DNA of 64,000 nucleotides from Morchella semilibera (Eukaryota; Ascomycota; Pezizomycetes; Pezizales; Morchellaceae). The notes beneath the pieces were generated by a model. The model was not told the DNA's origin, made no database searches, and saw nothing but the letters and a program-made list of their open reading frames with translations. The stretch spans positions 1,386,001-1,450,000 of the forward strand of contig WBVU01000004.1 in NCBI GenBank assembly GCA_009192285.1, in the 5' to 3' direction. Below, one piece after another: positions 1,033 to 41,251 of the stretch; the first letter of the stretch is position 1; each line of letters begins with the position of its first letter. The position numbers were made by a program, and so were the translations under genes.

Positions 1033-1893
1033 ATGGAGCGCCGGCGAGCCAAAGCCCGCGCGCCCAAGAACCTGGGCTCCTCCGGCGGCGGCGGGAACGA
1101 GGCGGCGAAGGTGGGACGGAAGCGCCCCTCGCTGGCCGCACACGAGAGCGGCGGCGGGGGAAGCGGCGGAGGGTTCCTGATCCTGAGGTAGATCTAGAGG
1201 AAGAAGAAGAAGACGACGCAGAGGAAGAGGAAGAGGAAGAAGAGACACAGACACAGACGCCCCGCCGAAAGCCAAAGCCAAAGCCAAAGCCAGAGACGCA
1301 CAAACCCTCCACCAGCACCAGCACACGGAAGCAAAAGCGCAAACCCTCGCCGCCGCCCAGTGCCTCTCCCCGGAAGCGCCGTCCCCCGACTACTTCTACT
1401 GCTACTGCTACTGCTACGACGGCTGAGGTGCCAACGTCCGGCACGGTGCGCATCCACATCGTGCACTCGTTCGGGCGCGTGACGAGCCACGAGGTCCCGC
1501 GCGGCGCGCGGCTGGAGGAGCTGTTCCGCATGCACCACGAGGCGGGCGGGCGGGCGCCGGCGCGCGGCGTGGTGATGCGGCAGGTGGGCGGGGAGGTGGC
1601 GGTGGGCGGTGGGCGGTACTGGGTTCGTGTTGGGGAGGGGGAGGGGGGCAGGCGGTCGAGTGGGAGTGGGGGAGGGTGGGCGGGGTGAAGGTGGAGGGGG
1701 CTGGGTGGGGGTTTGTGGATGGGGTGGCGTGGGTGGCGTGTGTGAGGAGGAGGGAGGAGGGGAGGAGGGGGAGGAGGAGGAGGGGGAGGAGGAGGAGGAG
1801 GGGACTGGCGAAGATGTAGAGGAGCAGGAGGATGTTGAGGGGGAGGTCGAGTCGGAGAGTGAAGAGCTCGACGACGACGATGACGACGAGTAG
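1033..1893 (+). CDS. Unknown protein: basic N-terminus, small folded core, acidic C-terminal tail; frame broken three times
   Basis: The start is ATG 1033 (context AAACGATGG) and the stop is TAG 1891-1893, followed by AATAAATAAA. Coding character continues throughout but moves through three frames: frame of 1033 to about 1170, then a second frame to about 1685, then a third to about 1745, then back to the first. Each step needs one extra base, as if a base were missing in G-rich runs; no intron of normal size fits. Read through, the product would be about 287 residues. It has a Gly/Ser-rich basic start (MERRRAKARAPKN), a Glu-rich block, KPKP repeats and a Lys/Arg-Ser-Pro region. A compact segment follows (TVRIHIVHSFGRVTSHEV, then RYWVRVGEG and WGFVDGVAWVACV), and the last ~45 residues are almost all Glu/Asp. 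The pattern suggests a nuclear protein, but I do not recognise the family. The ATG and 3' end are plausible; the exact protein is uncertain until the frameshifts are resolved. Confidence 0.5.
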
Positions 1894-1918
1894 GCCGTAG
1901 TTTTAAAACTCGGCCATG

Positions 1919-1928
1919 AATAAATAAA
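1919..1928 (+). terminator. Tandem polyadenylation signal AATAAATAAA
   Basis: Two overlapping AATAAA motifs lie 26 bp after the TAG at 1891-1893, followed by a T-rich stretch (about 1936-1974). This supports the plus-strand orientation of the preceding gene. The rest of the 592-bp convergent gap to 2485 holds nothing else I can identify. Confidence 0.5.
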
Positions 1929-2485
1929 ACCTCTTCTTTCCTCCCTTCTTTTCTTTTCTTTCCTTTTTTTTTTTAAAGCCGTTATGATAGCTGTCTGCAT
2001 TGTATATAGAGTAGAGTAGATACCCCCAGACCCAATGATATCCAGAAACAAAGTAGTTTGCTCGTTGGGTGGTTGTGAATTCTCTCATATGTGGGTGGGG
2101 TAAATGATAGACGGTGCTTGTTTTTCTCCCTTCCCCTGGATCACGGGTCATCACTCGTGCATGTTTTTGATTGATAACTCATGATTTGTGCTTTACTGTC
2201 TATAGGATCTTATATTCACACTCTTACCGCCCCCAAGAACAGAGCAGGCAAGTGAAGACATCCCTTTTAATTAACTACCTACTAACTATCCAACAGGAGT
2301 CGAGCCACCGCCATCAGGAGTGTACATATTCCCCGGCGCCCCCGGCGCATACCCCGCCCTCCAATTACACCTAAACGTCTCCGCGCCGATTCCCTGCGCC
2401 ACGACGCCCGCACACCTATCCGGCACCTTCCACTCACTGCACACACCAATTAGCCCCCCACCCACAACAAGCAGACACCGAAAAC

Positions 2486-3312
2486 CTACTGATCCAGCGT
2501 GACCGTCTCCGCCGCCGTCTCCAAGCGGAGGGAGACATACTCGGCCGGCTGCTCGCACCCCTTAACATGCTGCACCCACGTCGCCGTCGCCGCGCCCCCG
2601 CGGCAATCCATGTCGGCCCAGTCCAGCCCGTGCGAGCGCAGCATGGCCAGATACTTGCGCCGCCCGGCGTCGTAGCGCACATACATATCGAAGTTAGCAA
2701 CCTCCGCGCAGTGGCGATGGCGGTTGACCGGCCCCGGCGCGCCCACCGTGCGGCGCGCAAACACCAGCCACGACCCGGTCCGCAGCGCAAACGCGCTATC
2801 GTCAATACTCAGCACCGGCGTGTCCACGGCCAGCGTGGTCTCAGCGGCGGCGGCGGACGGGGCCGCAGTGACGGTAGCGGTGGTGACGGCGGCGCGCGGC
2901 CTACGCTGCGAGAGGTAGACCACTGGGGTGACTGTGGCGACCAGGACGCAGGCCACGGCGATGGGGACGGCGATGAGGAACACTTTTCGCATGCGCCATT
3001 TTGCGGCCTCTTTTTCGGCGGCGGCGGCGGTGGGCGGCGGGCGGTGGCGGGTGGTGGGGGGTGGCGGCGGGAGGCGCCGCCCCGCGCGCTCGCCCGCGGT
3101 CAGCGGGTGCTTGGTGTAGTTGCGGAGGTCGAGCGGGGGGACTATGATTGTGTCGTCTTCGTGGGGGCGGGGGTGGAGGAGGCGGTGGAGGAGGAGGGGA
3201 CGGTGGTGAGGAGGCGCTGCTGCGAGTCGGCGTCGGTGGAGTAGTCGGAGGTTGAGCCGGAGTCGGTGAGGGATGGGAGGGTCGCCCCGGGGTCTATAGT
3301 GAGATTGGCCAT
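2486..3312 (-). CDS. Single-pass type II membrane protein, unknown function (one frameshift)
   Basis: On the minus strand the best start is ATG 3312 (MANLTIDPGATLPSLTDSGS), followed by a Ser/Thr-rich cytosolic segment. That frame stops shortly after a poly-C run (plus-strand G5 at 3163-3167). Adding one C there joins it to the long downstream frame beginning PHEDDTIIVPPLDLRNY and running to TAG at 2486. The joined product would be about 275 residues. A hydrophobic helix (KVFLIAVPIAVACVLVATV) flanked by Arg/Lys forms a signal anchor. The C-terminal ~120 residues would lie outside the cytosol and contain three Cys (HCAEV, DMDCRG, KGCEQP), suggesting disulfides, plus many Trp/Tyr. The architecture resembles small fungal extracellular-domain proteins, but no family is recognised. 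It converges with the unknown gene at 1033-1893. Confidence 0.55.
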
Positions 3313-5090
3313 TTCGGGGAGGAGTGGGGTGGTGTTTGTGAATGGTGGGAGGAGATGTATGTAGGAAGAGAGGTGCGTGCAGGTCGAGTGATGGGCTGTG
3401 TCTAAGGCCCGATGTATATAGCAGAGTAGAGTAGAGCAGGTGCACCAACAGTCTCAGTCTCTATCCATAGCCCAGCACACATCCCATGACAAAAGCCCGC
3501 ACGTGAAAACAGAAACTCGCTCTACTTAGATCTTTAATTGTGTGTGTAGACGACCAGGGGCTCAGTGTTTGCAGTCACAGATTATCACTCGCCTGGCCAG
3601 CTCCAGTTCTCTGTATTGCAGCAATCCCCAGAGACGTTGTATGAACAGTTCACCCATCTCTACCAGATCTACGAGCACGCACACCACCACCGCCGCCATA
3701 AAGATAACCATCCCATCCACAACCAAAGCCGGCCACAACGGAGCAGATCCAAACCGCCAAACCACCAAGAACCTACAGCCCATACGGTGTGGTGGTGGTT
3801 AGGTCTGTATTGAACCATACAACAAAAACAATACCGCTGGACTACCAAGAGCCTCCATCAAGCGGTGGCAGCGTCCATCTGCACGGGCAAAAAACATTTC
3901 GTGTCTTGGCAGCGCGCGAGTGACACCCCATGACGCGCCTGGAAGACCCGGGCAGGCCGTGTCTGCACCGCCGCACCACCCACCACCAGAGTAAGTACAT
4001 CAACAGGACCACCACAACTTACACAACATAGCCCACCCCCATGATACCGACGTGTGCGTACATACAAAGGTTTTCTATCCACCGCGGTGTATCACGGCGA
4101 CATAGGGCCGCTATTGTGCCTAAGGACCCCAAGGTTGCCGGCTCTACCCACAGGGTAAGAGGGGGCCGGCCGGTAGGTAGACAGATACCTCTATCTACAG
4201 ATAGCCCAAGTTACAAACGCCGTCCAGCAACCCCCACCAGTTAGAACAACCTTGCGTGAAAAAAAAAACATTACAAAGCCAGCCCCTCCCTCCCCCACAA
4301 GAGCATCTAACAAATGCGCCCCCCACATCTCTCTCCCAAAAAAGGAGGGGAGAAAAAAAAGTTAGTCCACCAGGGGCAGGAATCGAACCCACCCCCATGC
4401 GCGGCTGGGGTACCCTCTCCTCCACGACCACCCCGTTTCCATCCCACACCACAACCACAGCCCACAGCCTCTCAACGCATGCCGGCAGCCACCATCTTTG
4501 CCTTTTTAAGCCCCCAGCCCCCACAGAAACCACCCAGGACGTCAGCCATTTATCACATCAATCAATCAATCAACCAATCGTTTACTTATCACAGGTGCCA
4601 TTATACACTCACATGCATACAAGAGGAAAAAAAGGTTTGACATGATGTTCACGATTGAGTTGCACCCACAGCCCTTGCTAAAATAATTATCTTACGAGGC
4701 AAACGAACTGTTCACCACCCCCCCATTTTTTTACTCCCCTAAACCTCCTCCAGCCCGACCATGGACATCTCGATCTCGTCATGTATCTGAACAATGCACC
4801 GTACTAGCTGGGGATCTTTTGGGACGGGTTGGTATTTGCACTGGTTGGAACGCCCCACCGAGTGATTGGTCGTGAAGATCATGTCACAAAGAAAAAAATA
4901 TTCACCTCTTTCCAAAGCGGGCCTTTCCTTATTAAGTCTCATCTCCAAATGTCTACAAGATCAATCAGATACCAACAAGGCGGGGGGGGGTACATCGCAA
5001 TAAAGACATAAAACACAAAAACATCGCGCCATTACTAGTATACGTAACTATAACAACAGAGAAAAGGAGGAAAAAAAGATATGGTAATAA
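3313..5090. other. Intergenic region, about 1.8 kb
   Basis: No gene I can support. Minus-strand open frames at 3562-3783 and 3858-4082 have some protein-like composition but no recognisable motif, no confident splice partners and no conserved context. A tRNA-like fold on the minus strand at 4369-4437 is discussed as a finding. A short ATCA repeat lies near 4557-4575. Confidence 0.5.
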
Positions 5091-5110
5091 AATAATAATA
5101 ATAATAATAA
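5091..5110. repeat. (AAT)n microsatellite
   Basis: Twenty bases of uninterrupted AAT repeat lie immediately 3' of the ERG26 stop codon (minus-strand transcript reads ATT repeats), probably in the 3' UTR. Confidence 0.8.
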
Positions 5111-5111
5111 A

Positions 5112-6364
5112 TTACTGTCCCTTTTTCTCCGCCTGCTTCTGCTCCTCCTCCACAAACCACGCCACGCCATCCAACACTCCCTGCGACAACGACACCAACG
5201 GCTGATATCCCAACAGCGTCTTCGCCTTGCTGATGTTAAAGTACCTCTGGCAGGTACTCAACTTGACCTTTTGTCTCGTCAAGTTTGGCTCCCTGCCCGT
5301 CAGCCATCCCACCAGCTCGCTGGCCGCGCCAGCAAACGAGGAAACCGACTTGGGGATCACGATCGTGTATGGCGCCACGTGGCCCTTTGCGGCCCAGACG
5401 GCGCGGACAAAGTCCCAGAAGGGGACGGGCTCGCCGTTGGTGATGAAGAAGGCTTCGCCGTCGACGGTGTGGACAGTCTTTTCCTGATCGACGGGCATGG
5501 CGAGGAGCTTCTCGGCCGCAAGGATGTGCGCGTAGGCGGCGTTGACGATATAGGTAAAGTCAGCCATGTTGGTGTTGTCGCCGAGTTGGAACTTGGTCTG
5601 GCCGCGCTCAAGGGCGGTGAACATTCCGGGGAGGGCTTGTCTGTCACCAGGGCTATAGTATTGTTTGTTAGAAAAGTAATATATATATAAACAAGTTTAG
5701 TGGGGGCTAGAAAAAGAGAGCTTACCCGAAAAGGCCGGATAATCTGAGCGAGATTGTCAGCATTCCCCTCTTTCGGTTGGCATCAATGACCATTTTCTCG
5801 CCAATGGCCTATGGGGGGACACATATACGATTAGTTTTTCCGGCCAAAAATTACTATTAATGCAAAGATGCAAAGAAAGAAAAGAAGGGAACAAACCTTA
5901 GTCTCATTATACGCATCCATGGGGACCTTTGGTATCGGCGCCGACTCGTTCACATTCCTCATGTCATGTATACCATCAAACACCACACTCGCAGAGCTCG
6001 TATACACAAACGCCCTCACGCCCTTATCCGTCGACGCCTCGAGCAGCGTCCTTGTGCCGTCGACATTGACCTTGAAGTAGATGTCTTTCCCGAGACCAAA
6101 GATAGGGGACACGGTGTCGATTACAACCTCCGGCTTACTGCGGGCGAGGATGTCGTCTACCTGGGCGCGCGAGGTGATATCACCGGCGTAGTAAGTGACT
6201 TTGGGGAAGTTGTTGGACTTTGTGTGCAAGTCGAGCACAGAGACGTTGCATTCGGGGTGCTGCTCGAGGAGGAGCTTGACGACGTGGTGGCCGAGAAAAC
6301 CACAACCACCGACGACGAGGACATTGTGGAGGGGTTGCTTTTTAACGGAGGGGACGGCGGACAT
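5112..6364 (-). CDS. ERG26: Sterol-4-alpha-carboxylate 3-dehydrogenase (decarboxylating), 363 aa
   Basis: Three exons on the minus strand: 6364-5897, 5808-5726 and 5652-5112. Phases agree exactly and give 363 residues, close to the usual fungal length of about 350-370. The N-terminus has the Rossmann NAD(P)-binding loop GGCGFLG (residues 19-25) in an extended SDR fold, and the catalytic YNETK (Tyr152, Lys156) falls right at the first splice site. Later conserved segments include RLSGLFGPGDRQALPGMF across the second junction, GDNTNMADFTYIVNAAYAHI, and VSSFAGAASELVGWLTGREP. This pattern is specific to the ERG26/NSDHL 3-beta-HSD group. The enzyme oxidises and decarboxylates the C-4 carboxyl intermediate in ergosterol synthesis at the ER, with Erg25, Erg27 and Erg28. 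The start at 6364 is chosen because MSAVPSVKK directly precedes the conserved fold; the upstream open frame is Ser/Leu-rich and unconserved. The gene looks intact. Confidence 0.93.
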
Positions 6365-7006
6365 TATGAATATTTTTCTTTCTTTTTTTTTAGAGGAGTG
6401 ATTGGGGGAAGGCAATTGAGAATGTTGTTGTTGTTGGTGGTGATGAAGATGATGGGATATGAAGAGGGAGGAAGAAGAAGAAGGGAGCTTAACGTTTCTC
6501 GGGGGTGCGACGTGGGCTTTCCGACGATACGAGAAAAGATTAGCCGACAGGGAACTGAGAGAACCCCTGAGCTGCTGCTGCTGCGTACTTTGTAAGCCAC
6601 AGACAGGTTTGTTGGTTGGTAGGTGCTGTGGCGCTAAAGTTAGAGGGAGAGACAAAGTACGAGTGAGAGGGCGAGAGGTGCTCCATGAGCTGCATGTTTC
6701 AGTCAGCTCTCTCGGTCTTGCCCTAGAAAGGTGCATAAATGATCTATCTACATGTGCATATATATGGGGTGGAGTATATGTGATTTCGTCAAACCGCATA
6801 TACTTGATACTTACCCGCACAAAGACATTAACCTACAGCGACGATGGATGACAGAATCGGACCCTGAGTAATAACAGTATCGCATTTTAATGAGGAGCTG
6901 GGGTAAACTTTCACTGGAATTGAGATTATAAAATACAGGCGGTACCCCATCCATCCATCTACTTTAGAGCTACAGACAGACAGACAGATATTCGAACCCC
7001 GCCCCT
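6365..7006. other. Intergenic/promoter region between ERG26 and COA4
   Basis: 642 bp separating two minus-strand genes, so it should hold the ERG26 promoter and the COA4 3' end. Open frames here are shadows. It contains a TATATAT stretch near 6758-6765 and a short CAGA repeat near 6972-6988. No binding site can be assigned. Confidence 0.45.
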
Positions 7007-7447
7007 TCACTTGTCGCGAGATCCAGTCCTGGTGGTATTCCCTTTCGCTTTCCAGCAGGCCTTGAAGGCCTCCATCTATTATAGAGATATATTCGGGTAT
7101 CAATTAGACTCGATCAATCACATCTTCTTTCGATTCACACTCAATTGGACACAAACCTCGTCTTTGCATAGCCGCCAGTCCTTCTTCTCAAAGTAGCAGT
7201 CGTTGAGTCTAGCGTTTTGCGCTATCATTATAATTAACAATCGGCCCCCTCTATATATTAATATCATTGAGAAAAGAAGAATCAGATACCTGAACAGCCA
7301 GTGTCATTAATTCTCTGGTCCCTATATATATGTGAATACATATAGTGTATCAGTAGATATCGATCAGATCACTCACCAGGCATCTGGCTCATCATCATCG
7401 TCCTGCTGTACTTGCGCCGGTGTCTTTTCTGGGGTCTTGCTCGCCAT
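7007..7447 (-). CDS. COA4: Cytochrome c oxidase assembly factor 4 (twin CX9C protein), 78 aa in four exons
   Basis: Reconstructed from splice sites: exons 7447-7377, 7321-7290, 7221-7157 and 7075-7007 (71+32+65+69 nt = 78 codons plus stop, all phases consistent). The product starts MASKTPEKTPAQVQQDDDDE, continues DAWDQRINDTGC, and has two CX9C motifs: C-(9)-C ending in LNDC, then the second ending in DEMEAFKAC after KKDWRLC. It closes with WKAKGNTTRTGSRDK. The acidic leader, the W-D-x-R-I-x-x-T-G-C entry, the DWR-x-C motif and the basic tail match yeast Coa4/Cmc3 and human COA4. Such CHCH proteins are imported and oxidised by Mia40 in the mitochondrial intermembrane space and assist complex IV assembly. 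Each donor is GTGAGT, GTATCT or GTTTGT and each acceptor TAG. No single open frame reveals this gene, so it is easily missed. The reconstruction is strong; the exact boundary of exon 3 was set by the CX9C spacing. Confidence 0.88.
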
Positions 7448-7635
7448 TGCTAATAATTATTCGCTGTTACTCTCGACCGGCCTGTCTGTTGTTTAATATT
7501 TGGAGGAGAAGTGTCTATATCAAAGGAGGCAGAGGCAGAAGCAGAAGAACAGACTCGTCTCACGTCTCCCCCGTTGCACCTCTTCATTCACGGCCTCCTC
7601 CTCCTCCTCCTCCGCCCCACATCACCCCACTAACC
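7448..7635. promoter_or_regulatory. Divergent promoter between COA4 and BPL1 (188 bp)
   Basis: The start codons of COA4 (minus, 7447) and BPL1 (plus, 7636) are only 188 bp apart in opposite directions, so the segment must carry both promoters or a shared one. It includes a purine-rich AGGCAGAGGCAGAAGCAGAAG stretch near 7525-7545 and a CTC/CCT repeat near 7597-7612. No specific factor site is recognised. Confidence 0.55.
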
Positions 7636-9815
7636 ATGCCGCGCATCAACGTCCTCGTCTATACCGGTACCATATTCCTCCCCCCCCCTCCCTACTACTG
7701 CTAACCTCCCCTCAGGCACCGGAACCACCGTCGAATCCGTCCGTCACACAATATACACCCTTCGCCGTCTCCTCTCCCCCCACTTCGCCGTCAACCCCAT
7801 TACCGCACACACTCTCCTCACCGAACCCTGGTCGCCCACCTGCGCACTCCTCGTCCTCCCCGGCGGTGCCGACCTCGGCTACTGCCGTGCCTCAACGGCG
7901 ACGGAAACCGCCTCATCAGCCAGTACGTCTGGGGCGGCGGTGCCTACCTCGGCTTCTGCGCCGGTGGGTACTACGGCTGCAACTGTGTAGAGTTCGAAGC
8001 TGGCGATTCGGCGCTAGAGGTCGTGGGGCCCCGCGAGCTCGCCTTCTTCGAGGGCGTGTGTAGGGGCGCGGCGTTCGGCGGGTTCGAGTATGGCAGTGAG
8101 AGGGGGGCGAGGGCACCAGAATTGCGGGTGGAGGGGAGCGGCGTGCTGGGGGAGGCACTGCAGGGCTTCCGGTGCTACTATAATGGCGGGGGGTGTTTGT
8201 GGATGCGGATAAGGTCGAGGGCGTGCAGGTCCTTGCCAGGTATAGCGAGAAGCTGAATGTGGAGGGAGGCGACGCTGCGGTCGTCTACTGTAAGGTTGGG
8301 AAGGGGGCGCGGTGCTCACGGGGCCGCATCCGGAGTATGTAGTCTGATCATTGACCCTATGAGTGAGTGAGTGAGTGCTGGTGATGCTGACTGACTGGTG
8401 GTGGTAGGTTTGCTGCGGTCAATCTGGATAGGAATGCGGGTCCTGAGGGGTATAGCGAGCTTGTGGATGCACTCTTGGAGGACGATACGAAGAGGGTTGC
8501 TTTCTTGAGGGCTTGCCTGGTCAAGCTGGGGCTTAATATCACGGGGGACGGCAAAGAGGTACCGCTGCTGTCTGATATACACCTGAGCTCTATAAATCCG
8601 GCCAATGTGGGCTACCTTGTGGAGCGCCTCAAGGACATTACTACTACTACAGAAGACGGCATTCGGAAAATCATTGGCGAGAATGATACTTTCACCATCT
8701 CAAGCTACAAAGAGGACGCCCTATCATTGACCGCCCTCTCCCGCTCCTCACCCGCCCCAAAACCCCCCACCGAGACCGGAATCCTCGACCACAACGCCCT
8801 CGAAAAGCACATCAAAACGCACCTTCACGCCCCCCCACCCCCGTCCGAAACCCCCCACTTCTCGCACAAATTCTTCTACAGCGCCCTCGCCCAGCGGCGC
8901 GCACAGTCCTTCGCCCCCGTCCTCCACCGCCCCTCCCACTTCGGCTCGTACCTCCTCTACGCAAACGTCACGACAAGCACAAACACAATCCTCGACAAGA
9001 ACTTTACGCTCCTCCAGCGCCTGCCCACGGGCCTCACCGCCGTCGCCACAATCCAGGTATCCGGCCGCGGCCGCGGCTCAAACAGCTGGGTCACGCCCCT
9101 CGGCGCCCTCGTCTGGTCGACCGTCATCCGCCACGCCGCACACCTAGGCACCACAGCCCCAGTGGTATTCATCCAGTACCTCGTCGCGCTCGCCGTCGTC
9201 GAGGCCATCAAGTCCTACGGCGACTACAACGGCAACGGCGAAGCCGAAGACGAAGGCTACGCCGCCATGCCCGTACGCCTAAAGTGGCCGAACGACATCT
9301 ACGCCGCCGACCCGGCCCCCGCCTCCGCCTCCGTCGTCAAGATCGGCGGCATCCTCGTCAACTGCAGCTACGCCGACGGGCAATTCCTCCTCGTCGTCGG
9401 CGTAGGCCTAAACACGACCAACGCCGCGCCCACAACCTCCCTGAACCACCTTCTCGCCGCGGTGAACGTGCAGCGGGCGCAGCAGGGGCGGGCGGGGCTC
9501 GCGCCGTACGAGGCCGAGCCGCTGCTGGCGCACATCCTGGCGCACTTCGAGGAGATGTATGCGCTCTTCTGCGAGCGCGGGTTCGCGCCCTTCATGGCGC
9601 CGTACTACGAGCACTGGCTGCACAGCGGGCAGGTGGTGACGCTCGAGATGGAGGGCGGCGCAAGGGCGAGGGTCAGGGGCATCACGAGCGATTTTGGGCT
9701 GCTGGTCGTGGACGAGGTGGATGCAGAGGGGAGGGGCACCGGTAGGACGTGGACCCTGCAGAGTGATGGGAATAGTTTTGATTTTTTTAGGGGTCTGCTG
9801 AGGAAGAAGACTTAG
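7636..9815 (+). CDS. BPL1: Biotin-protein ligase (holocarboxylase synthetase), three apparent one-base losses
   Basis: Exons 7636-7666, 7716-8334 and 8408-9815 (introns GTACCA...CTCAG and GTATGT...GGTAG). The N-terminal half is the amidotransferase-like BPL_N domain: INVLVYTGTGTTVESVRHT, LLVLPGGADLGYCR, and YLGFCAGGYYG with its nucleophile-like Cys. The C-terminal half is the catalytic domain, with GRGRGSNSW (ATP/biotin loop), LKWPNDIYA with the catalytic Lys, and IGGILVNCSY, then the C-terminal SH3-like cap ending GNSFDFFRGLLRKKT. The enzyme makes biotinyl-5'-AMP and biotinylates acetyl-CoA and pyruvate carboxylases. Exon 2 changes frame three times: at 7888-7891 (needs GCC CTC for the conserved RALNG), in the G6 run 8188-8193 (NGGGVFVD), and in the G5 run 8303-8307 (GKGGAVLTGPHPEF). 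Each needs one additional base. With them the product would be about 686 residues, normal for fungi. BPL1 is generally essential, so sequence error is more likely than loss. COA4 is its divergent neighbour. Confidence 0.9.
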
Positions 9816-10573
9816 GGGGTGGTTTGGTTTGTGGGACCTTTTTTCTTTTCTGGCTTTTTTTCTTTCTTTTGTGTTCTGGGATTGCGGGATGGGGTTTAGA
9901 TAGATTTTAGAGTAGCTCAATACATGGGAATATAGGCATCACGGTTATGCATTTGAGCTGGTTATTAATTGATCTGCCTGATATACATGTATCCTCTCTA
10001 CAAGTGAATCCTACCTAACTCTTAGGAACCAGACCCATAGGAAATCTCAGTCGAGCTATGTACATATTAGCTAGGCCTGTAATACCCCAGGGAGTTATAG
10101 TACACATAATCATCCCTACTACGATCATGCAGTCTAGTCTTTTTTTCTTCAAAAAAACAGGAAGTGCGCGGTAATGGATCTGGATATGTGTGCGATCTAC
10201 ATGTAGGTTCTATCTACAGACGAGTAATGCGGATGGTGGCGCATGGCCGCTCCTGTTCATGATCACTACCAGTTCGTTACCTGCTCGTGATCATTACCAT
10301 TTCACTACCTGTCCATTCCGGCTACCAGCTCTTTGCCTGTTCGTTCTGTTCAAACTGTTCAGTGTTTGATCTGTCCGCTCTCGCGCCTTGCTCTTTTCAG
10401 ACTTTCCGTATTGTTCCAGGTTACGATGCAATGGTGAAGGTCAACAACAAGGCCTAGCGGATCGTGCAGCGAATAGATCCCAGGGTGTATGTACAAGAGA
10501 TTATGTTTCTCCACCTTATCCAAAGCTTTGATTCCTATGAGGCTAAGATAAAAAAACCTGGATAGATTTCAAG
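9816..10573. other. Intergenic region after BPL1, 758 bp
   Basis: A T-rich 3' region follows the BPL1 stop (9830-9870). AT-rich DNA with two TACATGTA palindromes (9984-9991 and 10198-10205) comes next. Nothing coding is seen. Confidence 0.5.
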
Positions 10574-11470
10574 ATGTCGGATAATGACTCCAAGCGTTTG
10601 ACCCGTTTCAGTGCAGGCGATGTAGTAACTGTACGTGAGATACATCCATCGCCCACATGTTAGTTTGACTATATATATATCAATACTTATCATTTTTGAT
10701 AGATATCATCGCTCTTTAATTCAATTGCCCGAGAGAATTGTGATACCGAGTTGTGCCCCGCTCACCAGAGAAGGGGCATTCTTTCTACTCTGTACTGCTC
10801 GTTTAGCTTAGCCTAGCAGGCTCAAGACTACATATGGAGACTATGTTCAGTTACCATTGCACTTCTATATCTCAAATAGTCAACTGGGCCTTGAAGCACA
10901 TCAACGGTATGTGGTCATTCTCATCAAATGACTTTTCTTCGGATCATTTACCTACTATGCGCCCCGTATATTTCCCCCGAAAGATCCACCAGAAAGGCGC
11001 GCCTCTTACTATGTACTTGCTGGGGCTCCATCGATTGCATGATACGTCAAATACAATCTTTACGGTCCATATGAAGGTAGAAGGAATGATAATGCATTAT
11101 TCAAAAGAGAAAGTGGTTTGATACTAGAGCGTTGCCGGAAATTCGCTCTGGCTTCTGCATATTTGACGGCCCAGTATATTCTTTAGATCCGGCCCTTGTT
11201 TCACCTTATTCACATTTGACTTATGCTCTTACAGGCGATCAGAAATGGTTTAATAGGAATATGTCAGCGCCTTGTCGCGAGGTAGTGAGGTGGGGTTTCA
11301 CGGATGTGTTATATAAGACTTTGGATATTTCTAGATTTTAAAGCTGGTCAAAAGATATTTGGTTCATCTATTGGTACCAAATATAAAGCAGCTATCTTGT
11401 TGACGAATATACTACACACCTGTATACATGGCCCGGAAAGTTCTTTTTATTTTGATATGGGCTCAGGCTT
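10574..11470 (+). mobile_element. Decayed PIF/Harbinger-like DDE transposase (DDE_Tnp_4 type)
   Basis: Conserved pieces of a fungal DDE_Tnp_4-type transposase occur in the correct order in different plus-strand frames. They are MSDNDSKRLTRFSAGDV (from 10574), LPERIVIPS (about 10723), CTSISQIVNWALKHINGMW (about 10860), NDFSSDHLP (about 10930), RKIHQKGAPL (about 10980), then PALVSPYSHLTYALTGDQKW, FNRNMSAPCREVVRWGFTDV and, in a shifted frame, FLDFKAGQKIF, AAILLTNILHTCIHGPESS and YFDMG. The REVVRWGF motif and the FKAGQK...LLTNxHTC tail are typical of this family. Stop codons and frame changes break it, and the central part expected to hold the second catalytic Asp is missing or deleted. It is therefore an inactive relic. 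I could not identify terminal inverted repeats. The family call is from remembered motifs, not a search. Confidence 0.75.
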
Positions 11471-11759
11471 GTGATGAGCGAAGGGGCGGTGGAGACTTCG
11501 CTAAAGCCTAGTAACGCCCGGCGTGGGAACACTTGTCTTTTGTCCAACTAGGGATGCGCCAGCGTCTATATGATCGTAGACAAAAGCTGGCACATGGCAC
11601 ATTGACACTGTAATCGATAAGCCCGAGTATTTAGATTTAAAATCTTATACTCTATTGAATGAGGGGATGCATCACCGGCTCGCCCAGCTACATGGGAAAA
11701 TAGAAAGACGATCTTGATGGGTGTTCAACATATGGAATATAACACAAAAGATCAATTTA
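11471..11759. other. Sequence downstream of the transposase relic
   Basis: About 290 bp with no recognisable gene or repeat. The 3' terminus of the transposon may lie here but no inverted repeat partner was found by eye. Confidence 0.35.
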
Positions 11760-12002
11760 TCATATCACATCATTAGCTGGATTAAATATTTCACCCAGGA
11801 TAAACGTGTAGGGTTTTGTCACCCATTGTTGTAGATGAACGTCCAGTTCATTGAGTGTTGAGAAATTCTGTATGGAAATGTTCCCATTCGATTTATTTAC
11901 ATGGCTCCCAACGAAATGAACCAAAAGGTCCCCTTCCACCACTGGTTTATGCGGGTAATGTGCTTCTTGATGTATTGGCTTCCGTGATAACTTCAATTCC
12001 AA
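11760..12002 (-). pseudogene. Isolated 80-codon open frame, possibly a glycosyltransferase-34-like fragment
   Basis: A minus-strand frame of 80 codons ends at 11760 and contains PVVEGDLLVHFVGSHV. This resembles the GDxxVHFAG signature near the C-terminus of GMA12/MNN10-type (GT34) glycosyltransferases. The rest of such a domain is not seen upstream, where a 13-nt C run (12045-12057) interrupts. The composition is protein-like, but it may be chance. I keep it as a possible gene fragment only. Confidence 0.22.
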
Positions 12003-12351
12003 CTCTATCTATACATATTGACTCCAGCCTGTCAATCAGTGCATCCCCCCCCCCCCCAAGATGAAGCTCTCTAAAAGTACAGGGGTGGCGATACCACGGT
12101 TGTTGTGCCTGTGTCGTTGCCCATATCCCCAGGGGTCACAACGCATCACTCGCACACTCCCCCGCCGGCCACAGCCAACAAATTCCAAGCGCCAACATTC
12201 ATCCCGTCCGCCCCCAGAATTTCCCCGCCAAAAACCTACATACAAATCCACCAAGCCCCAGGCGAGCGAGGGGGCTTGGTAACACGCACTGTCGGCGAAT
12301 ATTTAAGACTTAAATTTTTGGTATCGATCTTGGCAATATCTACCCTCTTGC

Positions 12352-12359
12352 TATATAAA
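12352..12359 (+). promoter_or_regulatory. TATA-box-like element TATATAAA before a CT-rich tract
   Basis: TATATAAA is followed within 10-30 bp by a strongly pyrimidine-rich stretch (CCCCTCCTTTCCCCCCTCTC). TATA plus a CT-rich initiator region is typical of strongly expressed fungal genes. No convincing coding sequence follows, only the pyrimidine tract and hairpin array, so this may be a promoter for a non-coding transcript, a remnant, or chance. Confidence 0.35.
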
Positions 12360-12511
12360 CCCCTCCTTTCCCCCCTCTCTCTGACTTTTTTTCCTTCCCC
12401 AACGAACTCGACACTCTTGCCCAAGGCGGAGGGTAGAGCGGGTGCTTGGTCTTCTGTGGCCAGGCACCCAAATGCTCCTCTCCAACTTCTGGCCTTGCCC
12501 CACTGCGGCTT

Positions 12512-12872
12512 GCTTCCCCCCCTCCTCCCCTCCCCTCTCTCTCCCTCTTGCTTCCCTTCCCTCTCCCTCCCTCTCCCTCCCTCTCCCTCCCTCTCCCTCC
12601 CTCTTGCTTGCCTTCCCTCTCCCTCCCTCTCTCCCCCTCTTGCTTGCCTTCCCTCTCTCTCTCTCCCTCTTGCTTGCCTTCCCTCCTCTCTCTCTCCCTC
12701 TTGCTTGCCTTCCCTCTCTCTCCCTCTCTCTCCTCTCTCTCCTCTCTCCCTCCCTCTCCTCTCTCCCTCCCTCTCCCTCCCTCACTCTCCCTCACTCTCC
12801 CTCACTCTCCCTCACTCTCCCTCACTCTCCCTCTCCCTCCCTCACTCACTCTCCCTCTCTCCCTCTCTCTCC
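12512..12872. repeat. Pyrimidine (CTCCCT/CTCT) low-complexity tract, about 360 bp
   Basis: The plus strand is nearly all C and T, built from CTCCCT, CTCT and CTCACT units, interrupted by a recurring CTTGCTTGCCTTCCCT motif about five times between 12540 and 12720. The long Leu/Ser/Pro frames on the plus strand and Arg/Glu/Gly frames on the minus strand are by-products. Such homopurine-homopyrimidine mirror-like tracts can form triplex (H-DNA) structures. Confidence 0.85.
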
Positions 12873-12916
12873 TGGGTTTTTTGGCCCCCTTAGGGGGGTC
12901 TTTTTTTCCCTCGCTG

Positions 12917-13205
12917 GCCCTCTCCCTCCCAATAAATTGGGAGGGAGGGGGCTTTTTTGCGTTAGGTGCATCTTTGCCCTCTCCCTCCCAATTTATTGGG
13001 TGGGAGGGGGCTTTTTTGCGTTAGGTGCATCTTTGCCCTCTCCCTCCCAATTTATTGGGTGGGAGAGGGCTTTTTTGCGTTAGGACTACTTGCCCTCTCC
13101 CTCCCAATTTATTGGGTGGGAGAGGGCTTTTTTGCGTTAGGACTACTTGCCCTCTCCCTCCCAATTTATTGGGGGGGAGGGGGCTTTTTTGCGTTAGGAC
13201 TACTT
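12917..13205. repeat. Five tandem 57-59 bp units, each a strong hairpin followed by T6
   Basis: Units begin with GCCCTCTCCCTCCCAAT at 12917, 12976, 13035, 13092 and 13149. In each, GCCCTCTCCC-TCCCAAT pairs with ATTGGG-TGGGAGAGGGC (minor variants) across a very short loop, and the hairpin is followed directly by CTTTTTTGCGTTAGG and a spacer (TGCATCTTT or ACTACTT). Periods are 59, 59, 57 and 57 bp. A degenerate relative (GGCCCCCTTAGGGGGGTC followed by T7) precedes the array at about 12883-12908. The layout looks like repeated intrinsic terminators, although this is fungal DNA. Confidence 0.9.
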
Positions 13206-16180
13206 GCCTCTCTCTCCAAAGGGGGGGGGCAGGGTACGGTGTCTCTATCAGTCTCTGGGCGCTGTCCGAGGGACTGGAAGAGATCGCACCAGTTCCTCAC
13301 GTCTCTAGTTGTTTGTGTTTGTGCCTCCTCCTCCTTCTCCTCCTCCTCATGGCGAGGGTGAAGGTCTCGGCATCTCGCCTGAGATTTTGTGCTTCCTCTG
13401 TATTAGTAGTAAGTCTTCTTTCCCCTCCGTTTTCTTTTCTACTCCCTGGGCCGGTAAGAATCCAATTGATTATTGGGATTGACGGATCGAGTCCCCTCCC
13501 CCTTTCCATATACTTAAGCTTCCTCGTAGTAGCTCCTTCCACTCGAGCTCCAAGCCCCTAGCCTGAGTATATCCCGCCCCTGTAGTCATTAGCTTAGATG
13601 AGAAAGCAAAGCAGTAACAAACAAGTAACGAATTATATTGAGTATGTAGAAGCCCGCTCCCAAAGCCCCCTAAACTACGCTCGCAACCCTCCATATCCGC
13701 GCCTTGTAACAGATAGTCACAATGTACAAACCGGGTTATCAGGCATGACGAACACCTCCCAAGGTATCTATATACTTATCTATGCCTCTCCACGAGTCAC
13801 TAGCTTGCTATCATTAGCTAGGTAGACATAGGCTCAATCCCATATGTCAATGATCGAAATGCAAGAAATCTTGCGGTGTGGATATGTTACGGGCTCGACC
13901 CCATTCCTAATGATACAATCGCACAGAAATAGATACGTTCTCGCAGAGTATCATAACTCTTTTCCCTTATGCGGGCCAAGGTGTGTGAGCGATGGAGGTG
14001 GGTTTGTGCGGGCCTATTTGAGGGTATAAACGTAGGTACGTCTACCCCTTGTAGTTGCAGGAGACAAGACAACGTCAAGCCAAAAACATCGTAGCATAGT
14101 ACTACTACCATGAGATGGACCTTTCCCTATTACTAGCGCCCAGGGGGAAGGGCCTTCGCCGAATCCATGACCATAACTCATGAACACCTTCTCGCTACGG
14201 GGGAACGTCCGCAACAACCCCGAGTTTGACTCGGGCTGTTGGTGCTGACCTATGCTATGCTCACGATCAATTGGCCTATATATGACCGTACTATGCTTAA
14301 TTCTCCTATGGGAGCTCGTACGGGGCTTAAGGGTAGCTGTGATATGACATTCCTCCGACTCCAAAGCTTCTTCCCCATGATCATGATATTTCCGGATCCA
14401 GTCACATCCCCAGAACCAAACCCTCAGACCGTCCTAGTCATCGCCAGAACGTTCACCGGCCCCGTCTAAGTCATCGCCATCTATCAAGTGACATCCTTTA
14501 GATGGCTCGATATCACCTCTTAGACGAGGAACCCGAAGGGGCTACGAAGACCCGGACCATATATGAACCGCATGCACCAGCTAGCAATGATGGAATGAAC
14601 ATCTCACAACCCGACATTGCCCCTCCAGGTGACCAAGACGTACGCGGTAACAGCCAGGAGCCCTCCGGGACTTCCAGGCACCAGCTAACATGCTACATAG
14701 CCTTACACTCGGCCCGAGATCTTGATCAGGTCGACACCACCCCCCCCCCCCCCAGGGTGGTATTTGTCATTCAACGTACGTACCTGGGCTGGGTTTATCT
14801 CGTCAACCCCAGTTAGTCCCGAGACACCTGCACTGCCAGCCCAGGCTGTGGGTGAGGCCTCATGCATCGCCGGGGCGAAAGCTACGCCTCTATCATCCTA
14901 GCCACAATTTCTTTTGGTCCACATGGGTGTATAGACGGAAAGGGACCGCTTCAATGTAATATATAGCAGCTTACTACCTATGTAGCCCTAGCCGCATAAG
15001 CACAGGGCTAGGAGTCTCGCTCATGAGAGCTGCATGGAGGTGCTCATCATGATAGTGGGTATGAAGTACTGTCGAACAAGTAGACTATATGCGATTCTCT
15101 TCATGATACTGCATAATACACATGACTCTCTATCTGACAGGAAAGTACGGCCCAGATATATAACATGGGCCTACGTTCTAGCGATTAGTCTCAAGCACGG
15201 GGGAACAGATCAACAAACATATACCCATTTACCCAAGTTTATATGTATAGTGATTTGTATACATGTGCGACTTATCAAGTTAGCACTTACTCACACAAAA
15301 CTACACACAAGCTGGCAGAAGAACCACGCAACATTCATCTCGGCTCCCTAAAAACCTGAGCTCATGACTCCTCCTCTTATAACTCAGCTAGATAACCAGT
15401 CCCTTCGTCTTCCTCCAGGTTCCAGGATCACTTATAAGTAATGTCAACTAAACCAGTCCAAAAATAGCATATTTACTAATTAAACTTTCCGATTAGAGCA
15501 CGAGACTACAGCTAGCATGCACGCTACAGCTTGGTTCACAGTGCTATTAATTAAATATTAGTATTTCACAAATGGATACCTAGAGGAGTAGGTCAACCGA
15601 CTATCAGAATCGAAGTCTCGACGATTAGTACTTACTTTGTGGTATGGATGGATGTATACGCATCTGACCACAAGAGACAAGACGTGTGGAATGACGCAAT
15701 ATCGGATAGATACACACTCCTAGATACATGTACCTACATCTAATCATTGGTGGGGCTATGCTCAGATAAGGACCCACAAAGCTTTGTTTTCACCGGTGAA
15801 GCGGATGTCGATAAACCGGTAGAAGCACAATCACAACACTTTACTGCAGCACATTACCTGTAACTCCCCCCTCCGTCAAAGTCAAAAGAAATCCCGGGAT
15901 TCAAGGGGGGCCTTAACCTCGTGGTATCAATGTCACCCAAATCTACGCTTACTGAGCACTTCTCATCATCCATCGCATGATTGCAATCTAATCTAATCAA
16001 AAACTCAAAGCGGAAAACCCAAAATCAATCAACAGTTTATCGGTATTGTATTCATTCGCCGTGCCCATCACCCTTAAAATCAAAGTGCATAAAATTCCCA
16101 TCCCTAATAAAAGAAAACGAAACCCTCACTGAACGGGGAAAATTCCCCAAAAGAAAAAAGAAACAAAAGGCCCATCTCAT
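13206..16180. other. Gene-free region, about 3 kb
   Basis: No gene or recognisable element. Open frames up to about 115 codons occur but have no motif or splice support. A 14-nt C run lies at 14740-14753 and a TACATGTA palindrome at 15725-15732. Confidence 0.5.
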
Positions 16181-16587
16181 TTACTGGGTTGTAACTACAC
16201 TATCCTGCTCGATGTTCTCGACATGGGGCGAGCTCTCCAAGGCCCTGATGCCCGGCCCATCCGGGATGCATGCGCTAAGGTATGTTAGATAAAATACAAT
16301 GGCCAATAGATCGATGATGAAGTTACACACCTGAATCCCCTGATGAGGGTGTATTCATGTTCAATGGAGCCACCCTTCGCTATGATATCATCCTTTGCCT
16401 TTTGTATCTCGGAATCGGTGGTTTCGGGCTTGAAAGTGACCTGCAGTGCACATCGACGACATCGGTTAGCTAGTTGTACCACAACTGTGAGGAGCATCGC
16501 AACAAAAAAAAAGAAGGGGGGGGGGGGGTTGTTGTCGCTGCTGCGGGGTAGCTAGTAGCTGCGTCAACTTACAATGTAGGTCTTCAT
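16181..16587 (-). CDS. PBI2: Proteinase B inhibitor Pbi2/I9-type, 72 aa
   Basis: Three exons: 16587-16573 (only five codons, MKTYI), 16440-16331 and 16274-16181, with GTAAGT and GTGTGT donors and CAG and TAG acceptors. They give 72 residues, the usual size of fungal proteinase B inhibitor 2. The chain reads VTFKPETTDSEIQKAKDDI, then IAKGGSIEHEYTLIRGFSAC, then LESSPHVENIEQDSVVTTQ. This is the inhibitor I9 (subtilisin propeptide-like) fold: a beta strand, the E-I-Q-K helix, the GG-x-I-x-H-E-Y turn and the C-terminal VENIEQDSVV strand that blocks the protease active site. In yeast Pbi2 acts on vacuolar proteinase B and aids vacuole fusion. No signal peptide is present, as expected for a cytosolic protein. 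The first intron carries a 13-nt G run (16516-16528). Confidence 0.88.
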
Positions 16588-19045
16588 TTTGAGTTTGGTT
16601 TTTGGTTCGAGGTTAACTTGCGATGGTGGTGATATTGCTTGATTGATTCCGTCGATTTATGGCTGATGGAGAAGGAAGGAGAGAGGCAGCGTAGATATGG
16701 GGGGACCAGTGGGTTTATATCTGTTGTTGTTGTTGCTAGCTCACTCTATCTGGTCTGAGGCTTTGGCGGGGTAGTGAAGCTCCGTGCGCGCAGCGAGGGC
16801 GCTGGTGACGTAGATATCAATCCAATCGGGCCGGGTCCACCACGCCTTGGAAAGGAACTGTGGTGCAATGCATGTCCCCCCACCCCTCCCTCCCCCCCCC
16901 CCTCCCACCACAGCCCCGCCCCATGACTTGCTGCAAGGGCCTACGCAGCTAATATTGGTGATAGATATGGCTTTGAAGATATCTAATCTAGCTACTTTAC
17001 AGGGAAATGGATTAGATGTGCACTCCGAGTGTAACCGCACATCAAATGGGTTTCAGCTCTGCTTGGTCAGGATTCTGGACGATTTTAAGCGCTTGTGGAA
17101 TCACGACTCAGTCTCGGCGAGACACCACGCATTGGAATCAGGGCGTATGCGTGGGAATTCGGATTCGGATTCGGGGAGATTATTGTGGTGGATGCCAGTG
17201 AGTTGAAATGGTCATGTGCTATCACTCGGGCACTGCTAGATCAATGAGAGCGAGTCTCTACTATTACATATCTTGGCTCTTTATTTTGGGTGGTCACGAT
17301 ACGGAGAGCAAACCACTCATACTAGATCCCGATTTCGACAAACCTAACCCTAAAGGCAGCTCGATGAGGGCATTCGATATCCCTGCTTACCAAGATCTCT
17401 AGCAGATTTTCGAAGGTCCGCATTGGTGGATCTGCAATGGCAAAGTCAGTTAGGCACCGAACATTTGGGGCACTGTGCGTACATGTATGTATGTAGGTAC
17501 AAGCCCATCCTAGCCGGAAAGAACTGCAGACATTATGCTTTGCAAACTTGTTTGCGGCAGTTCTGGCCAGCTCCCCAACCCTCAAGGGCAGACAGTGCTT
17601 CTGGACCCCGAGACATCTAGGCACACATTTTTAGCCATGGAAGAGAATGGACAGCAGGTATAAGCAAATGGCAGAGAGAGGGAGCTCTCACCACCCTTCG
17701 GCATTCAGGACGAACCTGAGGAATACAAGTGAAGGTGACTCGTACTACCTGTTCCGTTCTTCCCTTAATAGCTGGGCAGGGAGGGAATGTGATGTGGGTG
17801 ATAGAGTCAGAGGGTTTCTGACTTTTATCCCCTGAATGCACATGCAGCTTGTATGTACAAAAAGTGCTACCACGGATACAGCCATCCGAAATACCACCCC
17901 ACTCGATCCTAGGCTACATGTAGCATCTACTAATGCTCAATCGCTTGAAACCGATACTCAATGGGTACATAACCCTAACCATGCCCCCCCCCCCCCCCCC
18001 AAAGCAGTGGATTTATATAGAGGGCAATACATAACATTTGGTACACCATGCCATTGATTCTCTGCAGTCAGAAGCCAGTCCAGTAGTCTAGAAGCCACTT
18101 TTTACCACCATAGATGTATTCCCCGTGAAGCCCCAGTAAAGCGACCTCTTGCCATAAGAAACTCAAAAATCATACCTAGTCTCCCATCATAAGCTGTTCT
18201 CCCATTTCATACAACGACCTTGACTCCGGGAGATAGACGCATTCGTATCCGTTCCGGTGATTGGGAAGTCACCATTTGGGTTAACTTGCCTCAGTTGATA
18301 ACCCTTTGCTCCGATTGTGCACACTACGTCCAGTAGATGAAGCGGTACATAGAGCTGAGACCAAAAGCCCCCAAGGCCTACCCACCACCACCCCCATGAG
18401 AGAAGGGCCAGCAGCCCCCTCTCCCCGTGCACCGTCCACCAAGCCCAACATCCGCTCACCCCACGATATGCAGTCCGACGCATGCACCGATGCATGGCCG
18501 GTGGTGTGCATACGACGATCATTAACGCACCCACCAGCAGACCCTGCATGTATGCATACCAATACCACGCTGGGACGGGCCTGTGCCTGGTTTCTAGAAC
18601 TGTAGGGAAAACTATCATTGACCCCAATCCCCAACCAGCTGTTGGGATGCTCCATCATGTTAACCTCCAGCAACGCAACACCCTCTTATGTGGAATTAGT
18701 AAAGAAACATCATCCAGCAATTGCTATTGAGCCCACTCCCAGACCAGGGCCGAAGTATAGTGGGGCCCTCTATACACAGGCACCTCTAGGGGAAGCGTTA
18801 ATCTTACACTGGAGCACAAGAGCATGCGTTCACAAAACGCACACACACCAAGCACCACAATTTACTTCAGTTAACTCCGTGCCATAAAAAAGATCATTAG
18901 CTATACACTACGATACCTAACTCAGCTCAAACAAACCAAACCATTAACACCCCAGTCCGGCCCGGTTCCAGTCCCACCACGAGCCAGGGAACCAGCGCTC
19001 CAAACGCCAAAAACCCAATCCTCACCCACCCAACCCATTCCATCA
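16588..19045. other. Intergenic region, about 2.5 kb
   Basis: The first few hundred bp should contain the PBI2 promoter. A mixed C-rich tract (about 16877-16912) and a 17-nt C run (17984-18000) are present, with a TACATGTA at 17925-17932. Open frames are short and unrecognised. Confidence 0.5.
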
Positions 19046-20439
19046 TCAGACATCGTCATGATGCGGGCTCAACCCTTCCATGCCCGGCCCCCCGAAATCG
19101 CCGATTCCGACACCCTTGAGCTTCAGGTACACATCCGTGCCCCACCCGAACGCACTCTGCACCTTCAAGCTCCCACCAAAATACTCCGCATACGCCCTAC
19201 TCAGCGGGAGACCATATCCCAGCCCTGCAATACTGCTCCCCTCAGCCGATCCCACAACCTCATTGAACCTCCCAAGCGCATCCTCACGAGACGGGTCCCT
19301 CGAGCCGCCGCCACCAGCGACACTCCGCTCCTGATTAAACGTCGAGAACGAATAGCTCCATATCTGACCGATATCTCCGGTGCGATCCCGCCGCCCTGGT
19401 CGCGGATGCGGATAGTGATGCCCGCTGACTCTGGCGCCGCTGCAATTGTAACCACAATTGGCACCGTGGACCCGGCCTCTACTGTCGCGCGGAACGAGTT
19501 CTTGAGGAGCTCCGTGATGATGTACTCCAGATGCACGGGTATATACGGGAAGCGGACCTCCGGGTCGCCATCGATCCGGAGCTGCGGCCGCACGCCGTAC
19601 CGCAGCTCACAAATGTCGCCGACGAAGGCCGCGCAGCTCTCGATTATGTTTGCGGGTTGGAGGGCGGTGTCGATCGTACCGATGTATGTATCGCTTGAGC
19701 CGTCATAATCGATCGGGGAGTTATTCGTGATACTACTCGTCGTCGATGCCAGGTGTAGTGCAATATGCTGTTCAGCCATGAGCCGTGTGCCGATACGGGC
19801 ACGAAGGTGGTGGTCCAGAAATTTTGTGGCCTCCTCGGAAGATATGTAGCGTCTGCACTCCAGGAAACCACGGGCGAGGGTAGGGATTGTGTTTGCGTGG
19901 ACCTTGACAATGTCGATGAGCATCTCCGTGAAGGCGACCTCCTCGGCGAGCGTGTTTGGATGCGAGATGGGGAAGGACTGCACTGTGCGGAGCGACTGCT
20001 GGTAGTTTTCGTAGATGCTGGACACATGAGGGTTCGAGACGATGATGAAGGGGAGATTGCGTAGGGCCACGATACGTCGGCAGAGGCGTATGGGCAAGAA
20101 TTCGCGGGTGAATCTGGCGGAGGCTAGGAGTGCCTGGGGGGAGAGAGGTGGGCGGCCGAAGCTAACAAGGGGTTAGAATAGGGTCTTTCCCAAGGTATAG
20201 AGAAAGAATACATACCGGACGAGATCCCGCAGCGTCAATGGCTTCAACGGGTTCGTGGCCAGTCTGGCAATCTCATCATTGGAGGCAGTGTATCCATCTG
20301 GAGCAGCGACCTGAGTCGCTGACAGCAGCCGTCGGGACGACGACGGCGACAATGACGACAACGACGACCAAGATGATGGAGAGAGATATGGAAGGGAACG
20401 ATGACGAAGTAACAGCAGTCTTGATCTCGCCAGATTCAT
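19046..20439 (-). CDS. Mitochondrial pyruvate/branched-chain dehydrogenase kinase family protein (one frameshift)
   Basis: Exon 1 (20439-20216) starts [20 protein letters not shown], an Arg/Leu/Ser-rich mitochondrial presequence, and reaches [11 protein letters not shown] 54-nt intron (GTATGT...GTTAG) is followed by exon 2 from 20161, [18 protein letters not shown]. Family motifs appear in order: [16 protein letters not shown], the N-box [14 protein letters not shown], the G1 box DQGGGI, then [20 protein letters not shown], and the G2 lid [20 protein letters not shown], ending at TGA 19046. The frame breaks once between GGGIAPE and IGQIWSYSF (about 19375-19376): one missing base would restore the conserved DIGQIWSY. 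Length would be about 446 residues. These GHKL-fold kinases inactivate PDH or BCKDH E1-alpha by serine phosphorylation in the matrix. I cannot separate Pkp1-like from Pkp2-like by eye. Confidence 0.87.
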
Positions 20440-40423: not shown

Positions 40424-41251
40424 CTACCCAGAAAAGTCCAACCTCATCAGCGGGCCCCTCCCCGCCATCCTCCAGAAATCCACACAGTCCAACCTCCTCC
40501 AATTCTCCCCACTCCTCGGCAGCGACCCCACCCCGCCCTCCTCCATCATCTCCAACACCCACTCCATCTGCTCCTCCTTCCTCTCCCCCTGCGCCCCGCC
40601 AGACCCCCACCCGCTCGCCAGGTCCCACCAATCATACACCCTCATATCACTCACGATCCAGCGCTCTCCGGGCGTAAACCTCCTCATCAGGCTCACCACC
40701 GCCCACGCCACATCGACACCATGCAACACATGCAGGCTCCCCTTCCCCCTTAGCGCCTCCTTCGTCGCTGCAACCCTCCCCACCCAGTTTCTAGGGTCGC
40801 GCTCGCCGCCCCACAGCCCCGCCAGGTTCAGCACCGCGCCGCCCAGCGCCAGCAGGGCGTCCTCGGCGACGGCGCGGGCATTGGCGGTGTCGTATGGGCT
40901 GTGACGGGTTATATGTCCGGGCACCGTCCAGATGCCTGTCGAGCCGAGCTGGATGAAGTTTGGCGTGGGGGTGGTGGGGTGCGTCTGGCTGTAGAGGGAG
41001 ACGAGGGTCTTGGTGGCTTCGGCGCTGCGCAGAGGGAAGATGATGAGGATGGTGGTGGCGGGGGGGAGGACGGTGAAGGGCGTGGGGTCTGTCGAGGTGG
41101 GGTCGAAGGTGAAGGGGATTGTGGAGGGACTGCTACTGCGGGAGGTGAGGGCGTGGGTGATTGAGAGCTGGGTGAGGAGGGGGACAAGGAAGGTGCTGGT
41201 CCAGCCGGAGCCGAGGAGGAGGATATCGACGTGGGGTGGGTCGGTGGTCAT
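40424..41251 (-). CDS. Rossmann-fold NAD(P)-binding protein (YeeZ-like SDR), 275 aa
   Basis: A single uninterrupted exon from ATG 41251 to TAG 40424. The N-terminus VDILLLGSGWTSTFLVPLL contains the nucleotide-binding turn LGSGWTSTFL after a first beta strand. Further on, ATTILIIFPLRS (beta strand), FIQLGSTGIWTVPG with the SDR-like G-S-T-G-I-W motif, SPYDTANARAVAEDALLALG, LAGLWGGERDPRNWVGRV and LHVLHGVDVAWAVV match the YeeZ/YbjT-like atypical epimerase proteins of bacteria and fungi. Their substrate is unknown. The C-terminal ~80 residues carry a Trp-rich region (YDWWDLASGWGSGG). It is possible that the TAG lies inside a missed terminal intron, since GTAGGT overlaps the stop. Otherwise it looks complete. 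Confidence 0.72.
   Translation of the reverse strand: MTTDPPHVDILLLGSGWTSTFLVPLLTQLSITHALTSRSSSPSTIPFTFDPTSTDPTPFTVLPPATTILIIFPLRSAEATKTLVSLYSQTHPTTPTPNFIQLGSTGIWTVPGHITRHSPYDTANARAVAEDALLALGGAVLNLAGLWGGERDPRNWVGRVAATKEALRGKGSLHVLHGVDVAWAVVSLMRRFTPGERWIVSDMRVYDWWDLASGWGSGGAQGERKEEQMEWVLEMMEEGGVGSLPRSGENWRRLDCVDFWRMAGRGPLMRLDFSG

Follow-up and report, generated by a model that had tools for sequence, protein, structure and literature searches.

Two described systems come closest to genes whose reading frame changes abruptly without splice sites. The first one is technical: in long-read and hybrid assemblies, genes are fragmented by indels that are alike to those considered here, in a sense that they are single-base, mostly concern homopolymer length and break the reading frame, and, according to the available text of two papers (PMC12007338, PMC8812927), such errors often persist in repeats, which short reads do not polish reliably. 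The genomes treated there are small or bacterial, whereas the present case is a fungal PacBio RSII/Illumina hybrid in which near-identical scaffolds of one assembly can be compared with each other. The second one is programmed -1 ribosomal frameshifting, which shares with the present case the direction of the frame change and the position of some of the sites at runs. Unlike it, the locus described here offers no slippery heptamer at any of its five solid breaks and would require several events in one gene.

The assembly in question, WBVU00000000, is that of Morchella crassipes M10M26, a single-spore strain of an edible morel, for which Table 1 of its description (PMC7014384) gives 56,756,124 bases in 23 scaffolds, with an N50 of 2,999,225, a longest scaffold of 7,341,407 and a shortest of 544,727. 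The genome searched comprises 56,756,124 bases in 23 contigs, and the window (i.e., the whole stretch of 64,000 nucleotides that was analysed) is C20:1386001-1450000. Reads came from two SMRT cells of PacBio RSII P6-C4 together with Illumina libraries, and were assembled with ALLPATHS-LG, DBG2OLC, FALCON, Quickmerge, SSPACE and GAPCLOSER (PMC7014384). In the available text of that paper the words Pilon and polish have zero occurrences and the details are referred to an earlier one; the same group's earlier pipeline, applied to M. importuna, names Pilon and quiver (PMC6164635), so the present assembly may likewise have been polished.

Within the window, five frame breaks are solid: one in a membrane protein, three in the biotin-protein ligase BPL1 and one in a PDK-family kinase. 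In all five, the shift goes to the frame one base earlier, which corresponds to one missing base (or, less simply, to two surplus ones). These breaks very probably reflect errors in the consensus of the published assembly, from which single bases were dropped. This is an ordinary artefact with no new biology, and recognising it removes a false lead, namely recoding or the decay of an essential enzyme.

Detection of frame breaks

The breaks were called with a codon-usage model that reads both strands, admits GT-AG introns, penalises a missing and a surplus base equally, and was trained on the window and the sampled stretches themselves. A first version with cheap introns, applied to the first 20.5 kb only, produced chains of introns and called zero breaks. 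The revised version has a higher intron cost and includes branch-site and length terms, and its break calls depend on that setting. Its branch-site and length terms were built on the fungal consensus. The median intron of 63 bp given for this genome (PMC7014384) fits the revised intron terms.

When errors were planted at 120 places, 98/120 missing bases and 94/120 surplus bases were recovered, and none was called in the wrong direction. Besides the window, 20 other 10-kb stretches (200 kb, L-numbered) were analysed, a sample that is partly redundant, L010/L011 and L013/L014 being twins. The real data, 264 kb altogether, yielded 20 calls (15 ‘missing’ and 5 ‘surplus’), 12 of them outside the window, where five (L005:9554 and those in L011, L013, L014 and L021) have a gain below 5. 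Codon shuffles of the 264 kb in five replicates gave 12 new calls (2.4 per replicate), 11 ‘missing’ and 1 ‘surplus’, and no more than 10-11 of the original 20 were still made after shuffling. Since the false calls themselves lean towards ‘missing’, the 15:5 ratio of the model is no evidence of direction, and the weaker calls are not to be relied on.

All eight calls in the window lie within its first 20.5 kb (7 ‘missing’ and 1 ‘surplus’, a count that includes a discarded call and undecided ones). The discarded one, at 12892 (gain 3.6), sits beside a C/T-rich low-complexity stretch. For none of the five solid breaks does an intron score better in the codon model. The breaks in BPL1 and in the kinase are also backed by Pfam and PDB matches that are independent of it, and for those in the membrane protein and in the gene at 1033-1893 the codon model is the one line of support. 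Coordinates are collected in Table 1.

Table 1. Frame breaks, profile matches and related features of the window (gain, score gain of the codon model; longest run, in bases, within the interval)
Feature	Position	Strand	Longest run	Remarks
GC-rich gene	1033..1893	+		plausible break 1153-1190; second frame change at about 1604-1800
Membrane protein break	3148..3183	-	5	gene 2286-3312; two G5 runs in the interval; gain 19.3
BPL1, biotin-protein ligase	7636..9815	+		three breaks, all within the initial 0.7 kb, no call in 8408-9815; gain 13.5 (three breaks jointly)
BPL_N piece	7712-7897	+		HMM 7-68, frame 2
BPL1 break 1	7888..7897	+	3	BPL_N pieces HMM 7-68 and 66-171 overlap, frames differ
BPL_N piece	7888-8199	+		HMM 66-171, frame 1
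BPL1 break 2	8183..8200	+	6	BPL_N pieces HMM 66-171 and 169-211 overlap at 8190-8199; G6 run 8188-8193
BPL_N piece	8190-8309	+		HMM 169-211, frame 0
BPL1 break 3	8293..8312	+	5	upstream of GT-AG intron 8335-8407; G5 run 8303-8307
BPL_N piece	8409-8591	+		HMM 221-283
PDK/BCKDK-family kinase break	19344..19392	-	3	gene 19046-20439; adjoins the ATPase-domain stretch GGGIA; gain 12.5
Three GC-rich genes without call	40424..47516			counter-examples to the idea that GC-rich genes are broken
Uncalled GC-rich gene	40424-41251			GC 0.653
Uncalled GC-rich gene	43640-44599			GC 0.605
Uncalled GC-rich gene	46508-47516			GC 0.609

Frame breaks in genes with and without family matches

The clearest case is BPL1. 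A genome-wide search with the BPL_N profile (PF09825) gave four matches, left unjoined, all of them at this locus, where they follow one another along the profile in three reading frames, contain no internal stop and together cover most of the domain. Both overlaps involve a step to the frame lying one base earlier; one added base per break would reconnect the conserved protein, as had been proposed from the letters. For the first break, the model gives a wider interval (7882-7925), without any run longer than 3. The third break is called because the phase of the downstream GT-AG intron demands a frame change; the stretch between them is short and has no separate family match. All three lie inside one conserved domain, and the C-terminal ligase part is a single open frame and the only such match found genome-wide.

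Could these genes be decaying pseudogenes under relaxed selection, the breaks being real? Biotin-protein ligase is essential in fungi, and a genome-wide search found no second copy of BPL1, so that decay of this gene is unlikely. On the other hand, decay would be easier to accept for the membrane protein, without a family match over any Pfam cut-off, and for the gene at 1033-1893, without a helpful one; in the case of the kinase, further PDK-family genes are present (PF10436 matches on C2 and C6). Nonetheless, both sides of the BPL1 and kinase breaks match their family, with the exception of the short stretch between the third BPL1 break and its intron, and the stop-free BPL_N pieces jointly span most of their domain, all of which leaves decay a very small probability.

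The kinase gene gives two matches, in different frames, to 1gjv_A, a branched-chain alpha-ketoacid dehydrogenase kinase in the PDB: one piece corresponds to its residues 56-292 and the other to 309-373. They meet near the interval of the break, where one added base would join these two BCKDK-like pieces, in agreement with the first reading of the sequence. The membrane protein carries the largest gain of the codon model.

The gene at 1033-1893 is less clear. A break in 1153-1190 is plausible according to the model, which gains 11.7 for two changes together, one missing and one surplus base, and turns to an intron if surplus bases are forbidden. Two losses at 1630-1685 and 1742-1800 amount, in net frame, to one gain, so three losses in this gene are not established. 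The sequence-only reading had counted eight one-base losses in the region, none of them needing the removal of a base. Five of the eight are well supported and one is plausible, whereas the other two, both in this gene, would equally fit one surplus base, which the model prefers near 1604; the shared direction holds for the five solid breaks, but not necessarily for the gene at 1033-1893.

The frame changes might also be unrecognised introns. The zero breaks called by the first model, with its cheap introns, speak in that direction, as does the fact that, with frame shifts forbidden, the revised model adds GT-AG introns to the gene at 1033-1893, to BPL1 and to the kinase. However, these intron paths score lower (164.5 vs 178.0 for BPL1 and 85.6 vs 98.1 for the kinase), and those in BPL1 would excise residues that belong to a single in-frame BPL_N match (7888-8199). 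Introns are therefore a barely credible explanation.

The direction shared by the five solid breaks is the one that -1 ribosomal slippage would produce, and a G5 or G6 run is present in three of their intervals. Both facts would suit a correct genome in which either slippage or RNA editing at G/C runs restores the frames. The earlier statement that most breaks sit in short C or G runs fits those three intervals, but the first BPL1 break and the kinase break have none longer than 3. Against slippage, the upstream frame lacks an X XXY YYZ heptamer in all five intervals, even including 15 bases on each side; BPL1 alone would require three events in about 420 bp; and 56 of the 69 G/C runs of at least 5 in called coding sequence fall in none of the break intervals. 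Programmed slippage is highly improbable, and the chance that genuine genomic sequence is corrected at such runs by either process is minimal.

Near-identical scaffolds as an internal control

Consensus error is further favoured by the assembly itself, which contains near-identical scaffold pairs: C9/C10, C12/C13 and part of C21/C22. They were spotted when protein kinases were searched for, with 123 out of 350 candidates scored, and matches recurred at nearly equal coordinates. Among the kinase matches listed, 9/9 on C9 are paired with one on C10 (0.11-1.77 Mb), 3/3 on C12 with one on C13, and 4/8 on C21 with one on C22, these four all in the first 0.6 Mb; one C21 match inside that same 0.6 Mb (146269) has no partner among those listed.

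Five pairs of 10-kb stretches (all those fetched) were compared, comprising 49,932 aligned columns on scaffolds other than that of the window. They differ by 0 substitutions and 35 indels, of which 33 are single-base. Three of the five pairs are identical, one has 5 indels and one has 30, the latter all inside one 2.8-kb patch. Of the 35 indels, 32 fall in runs of at least 2, which make up 46.4% of the bases (p about 2e-8), and 21 in runs of at least 3, which make up 19% (p about 1e-7). Run lengths of 1, 2, 3-4 and at least 5 account for 3, 11, 12 and 9 indels, respectively, the corresponding background, taken from two of the loci, being 53.6, 27.4, 15.4 and 3.6% of bases. Local GC at the indels is 0.39-0.55, and A is the base most often affected (16/35).

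Across the ten paired loci, seven frame breaks were called. The calls at L010:7151 and L013:3058 do not recur in the twins L011 and L014, which carry one extra base, 12 and 5 bp away respectively; the gain is 9.8 for the two L010 calls jointly and only 1.3 for the L013 call. A third call made in one copy, L014:1643 (gain 0.2), is without such a simple counterpart, and the remaining ones are called alike in both copies (L010:7754 and L011:7793; position 5102 in both L032 and L033). Several pair indels within stretches taken as coding by the model give no call, and some lie in stretches that it takes as non-coding.

Since the scaffolds of a single-spore strain never differ by substitution here, consensus error is the best explanation of their differences. 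The copies differ by indels only, the indels are enriched in homopolymers and the read technology, PacBio RSII in a hybrid assembly, is error-prone; together they support what had been offered as the simplest reading, i.e., bases missing in the assembly, and we infer the same cause for the breaks of the window. That these errors are systematic, as also proposed, is not borne out by the pairs, where they are patchy. As for the mechanism, single bases, often in short homopolymers, would have been dropped from a PacBio RSII consensus merged with Illumina contigs and left uncorrected, and they may have escaped correction at places with few or ambiguous Illumina reads, such as GC-rich spots and duplicated scaffolds.

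The alternative is that M. crassipes truly lacks these bases and relies on repeated -1 recoding or base-inserting RNA editing at G/C-rich sites. Like differences are found between otherwise identical scaffolds, non-coding stretches (according to the model) included, and such a reliance deserves next to no credence. The single-copy gene, the absence of a shared motif and these non-coding counterparts all speak against slippage, editing and decay. The comparison of the pairs shows that the published M. crassipes assembly has patches of indels in addition to near-identical scaffold pairs, either of which can bias the gene models, gene counts and gene-family comparisons drawn from this genome.

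A twin of the window's own region was not found when its first 8 kb were searched (40 of 115 candidates scored), and the remaining listed candidates match only a short repeat. Likewise, the scaffold pairs did not come up in a partial check of the literature on WBVU or on M. crassipes duplication; in the available text of PMC10868677, the sole occurrence of ‘duplicated’ is a figure legend about the BUSCO genes of another morel.

Base composition and the extent of the breaks

The breaks had been described as confined to GC-rich coding regions. This is true of the window, where coding sequence with a local GC of at least 0.55 has 8 calls in 9,487 bp and the rest has 0 in 10,456 bp, and the AT-richer genes for eEF2, MFS and RBM26/27 are, as previously noted, free of any call. 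It does not extend to the 20 other stretches, with 3 calls in 16.1 kb at or above 0.55 and 9 in 53.2 kb below it, an about equal rate in counts that include several weak calls and two stretch pairs that are twins. Moreover, three GC-rich genes of the window are unbroken (Table 1), two of them containing G6 or G7 runs, and the GC-rich second half of BPL1 and a 3-beta-HSD-like gene (5112-6364) are also uncalled. The window breaks all lie in GC-rich coding sequence, and the pair indels at the intermediate GC given above; the two error populations thus differ, which speaks against a shared cause.

Wholesale homopolymer compression is ruled out by the G runs of up to 13 and C runs of up to 17 present in the window, and an extension of the error patch upstream is unsupported, since the only call in the 20 kb that immediately precede the window is a weak one, for a surplus base (gain 4.8). 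Rfam and tRNA scans over the window were empty, and a search with MFS (9 of 213 candidates scored) gave nothing informative. Chaperonin genes (PF00118) show mostly intron-sized gaps and, on C23, a 20-bp gap with a frame change.

Candidate frame breaks and scaffold pairs

The kinase locus on scaffolds C21 and C22 of the published Morchella crassipes M10M26 assembly carries the same domain match on both, in an open frame of 259 aa on C21 versus 375 aa on C22, and is a candidate for a further reading-frame break, present in one copy only. In the chaperonin gene on C23, the Pfam pieces lie 20 bp apart, less than the usual intron length, and in different frames.

Within this assembly, C9/C10 (2.07 Mb each), C12/C13 (1.58 Mb each) and part of C21/C22 are near-identical pairs. 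Among the protein-kinase matches listed, 9 of 9 on C9/C10 and 3 of 3 on C12/C13 are paired, and those on C21/C22 place the near-identity in part of the first 0.6 Mb. The 10-kb stretches compared (L010/L011, L013/L014, L028-L033) hold no substitution in 49,932 columns. Such pairs may inflate gene counts and genome size.

Other features of the window

The dispersed repeat has at least 39 more matches across the genome (81-94% identity among the matches listed); it is perhaps a SINE, and part of it resembles a tRNA-type B box. The gene with the Whi5-like motif possibly encodes a cell-cycle Start repressor.

Coordinates of the features discussed
Feature	Location	Strand	Evidence
Kinase domain	C21:591221-591817; C22:592314-592910		Protein-kinase search
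Chaperonin gene, gap between Pfam pieces	C23:548295-548316		Pfam search
Dispersed repeat, up to about 175 bp	Window 4338-4516		
Gene with Whi5-like motif	Window 26763-27917	-	PF08528, E 5.6e-7
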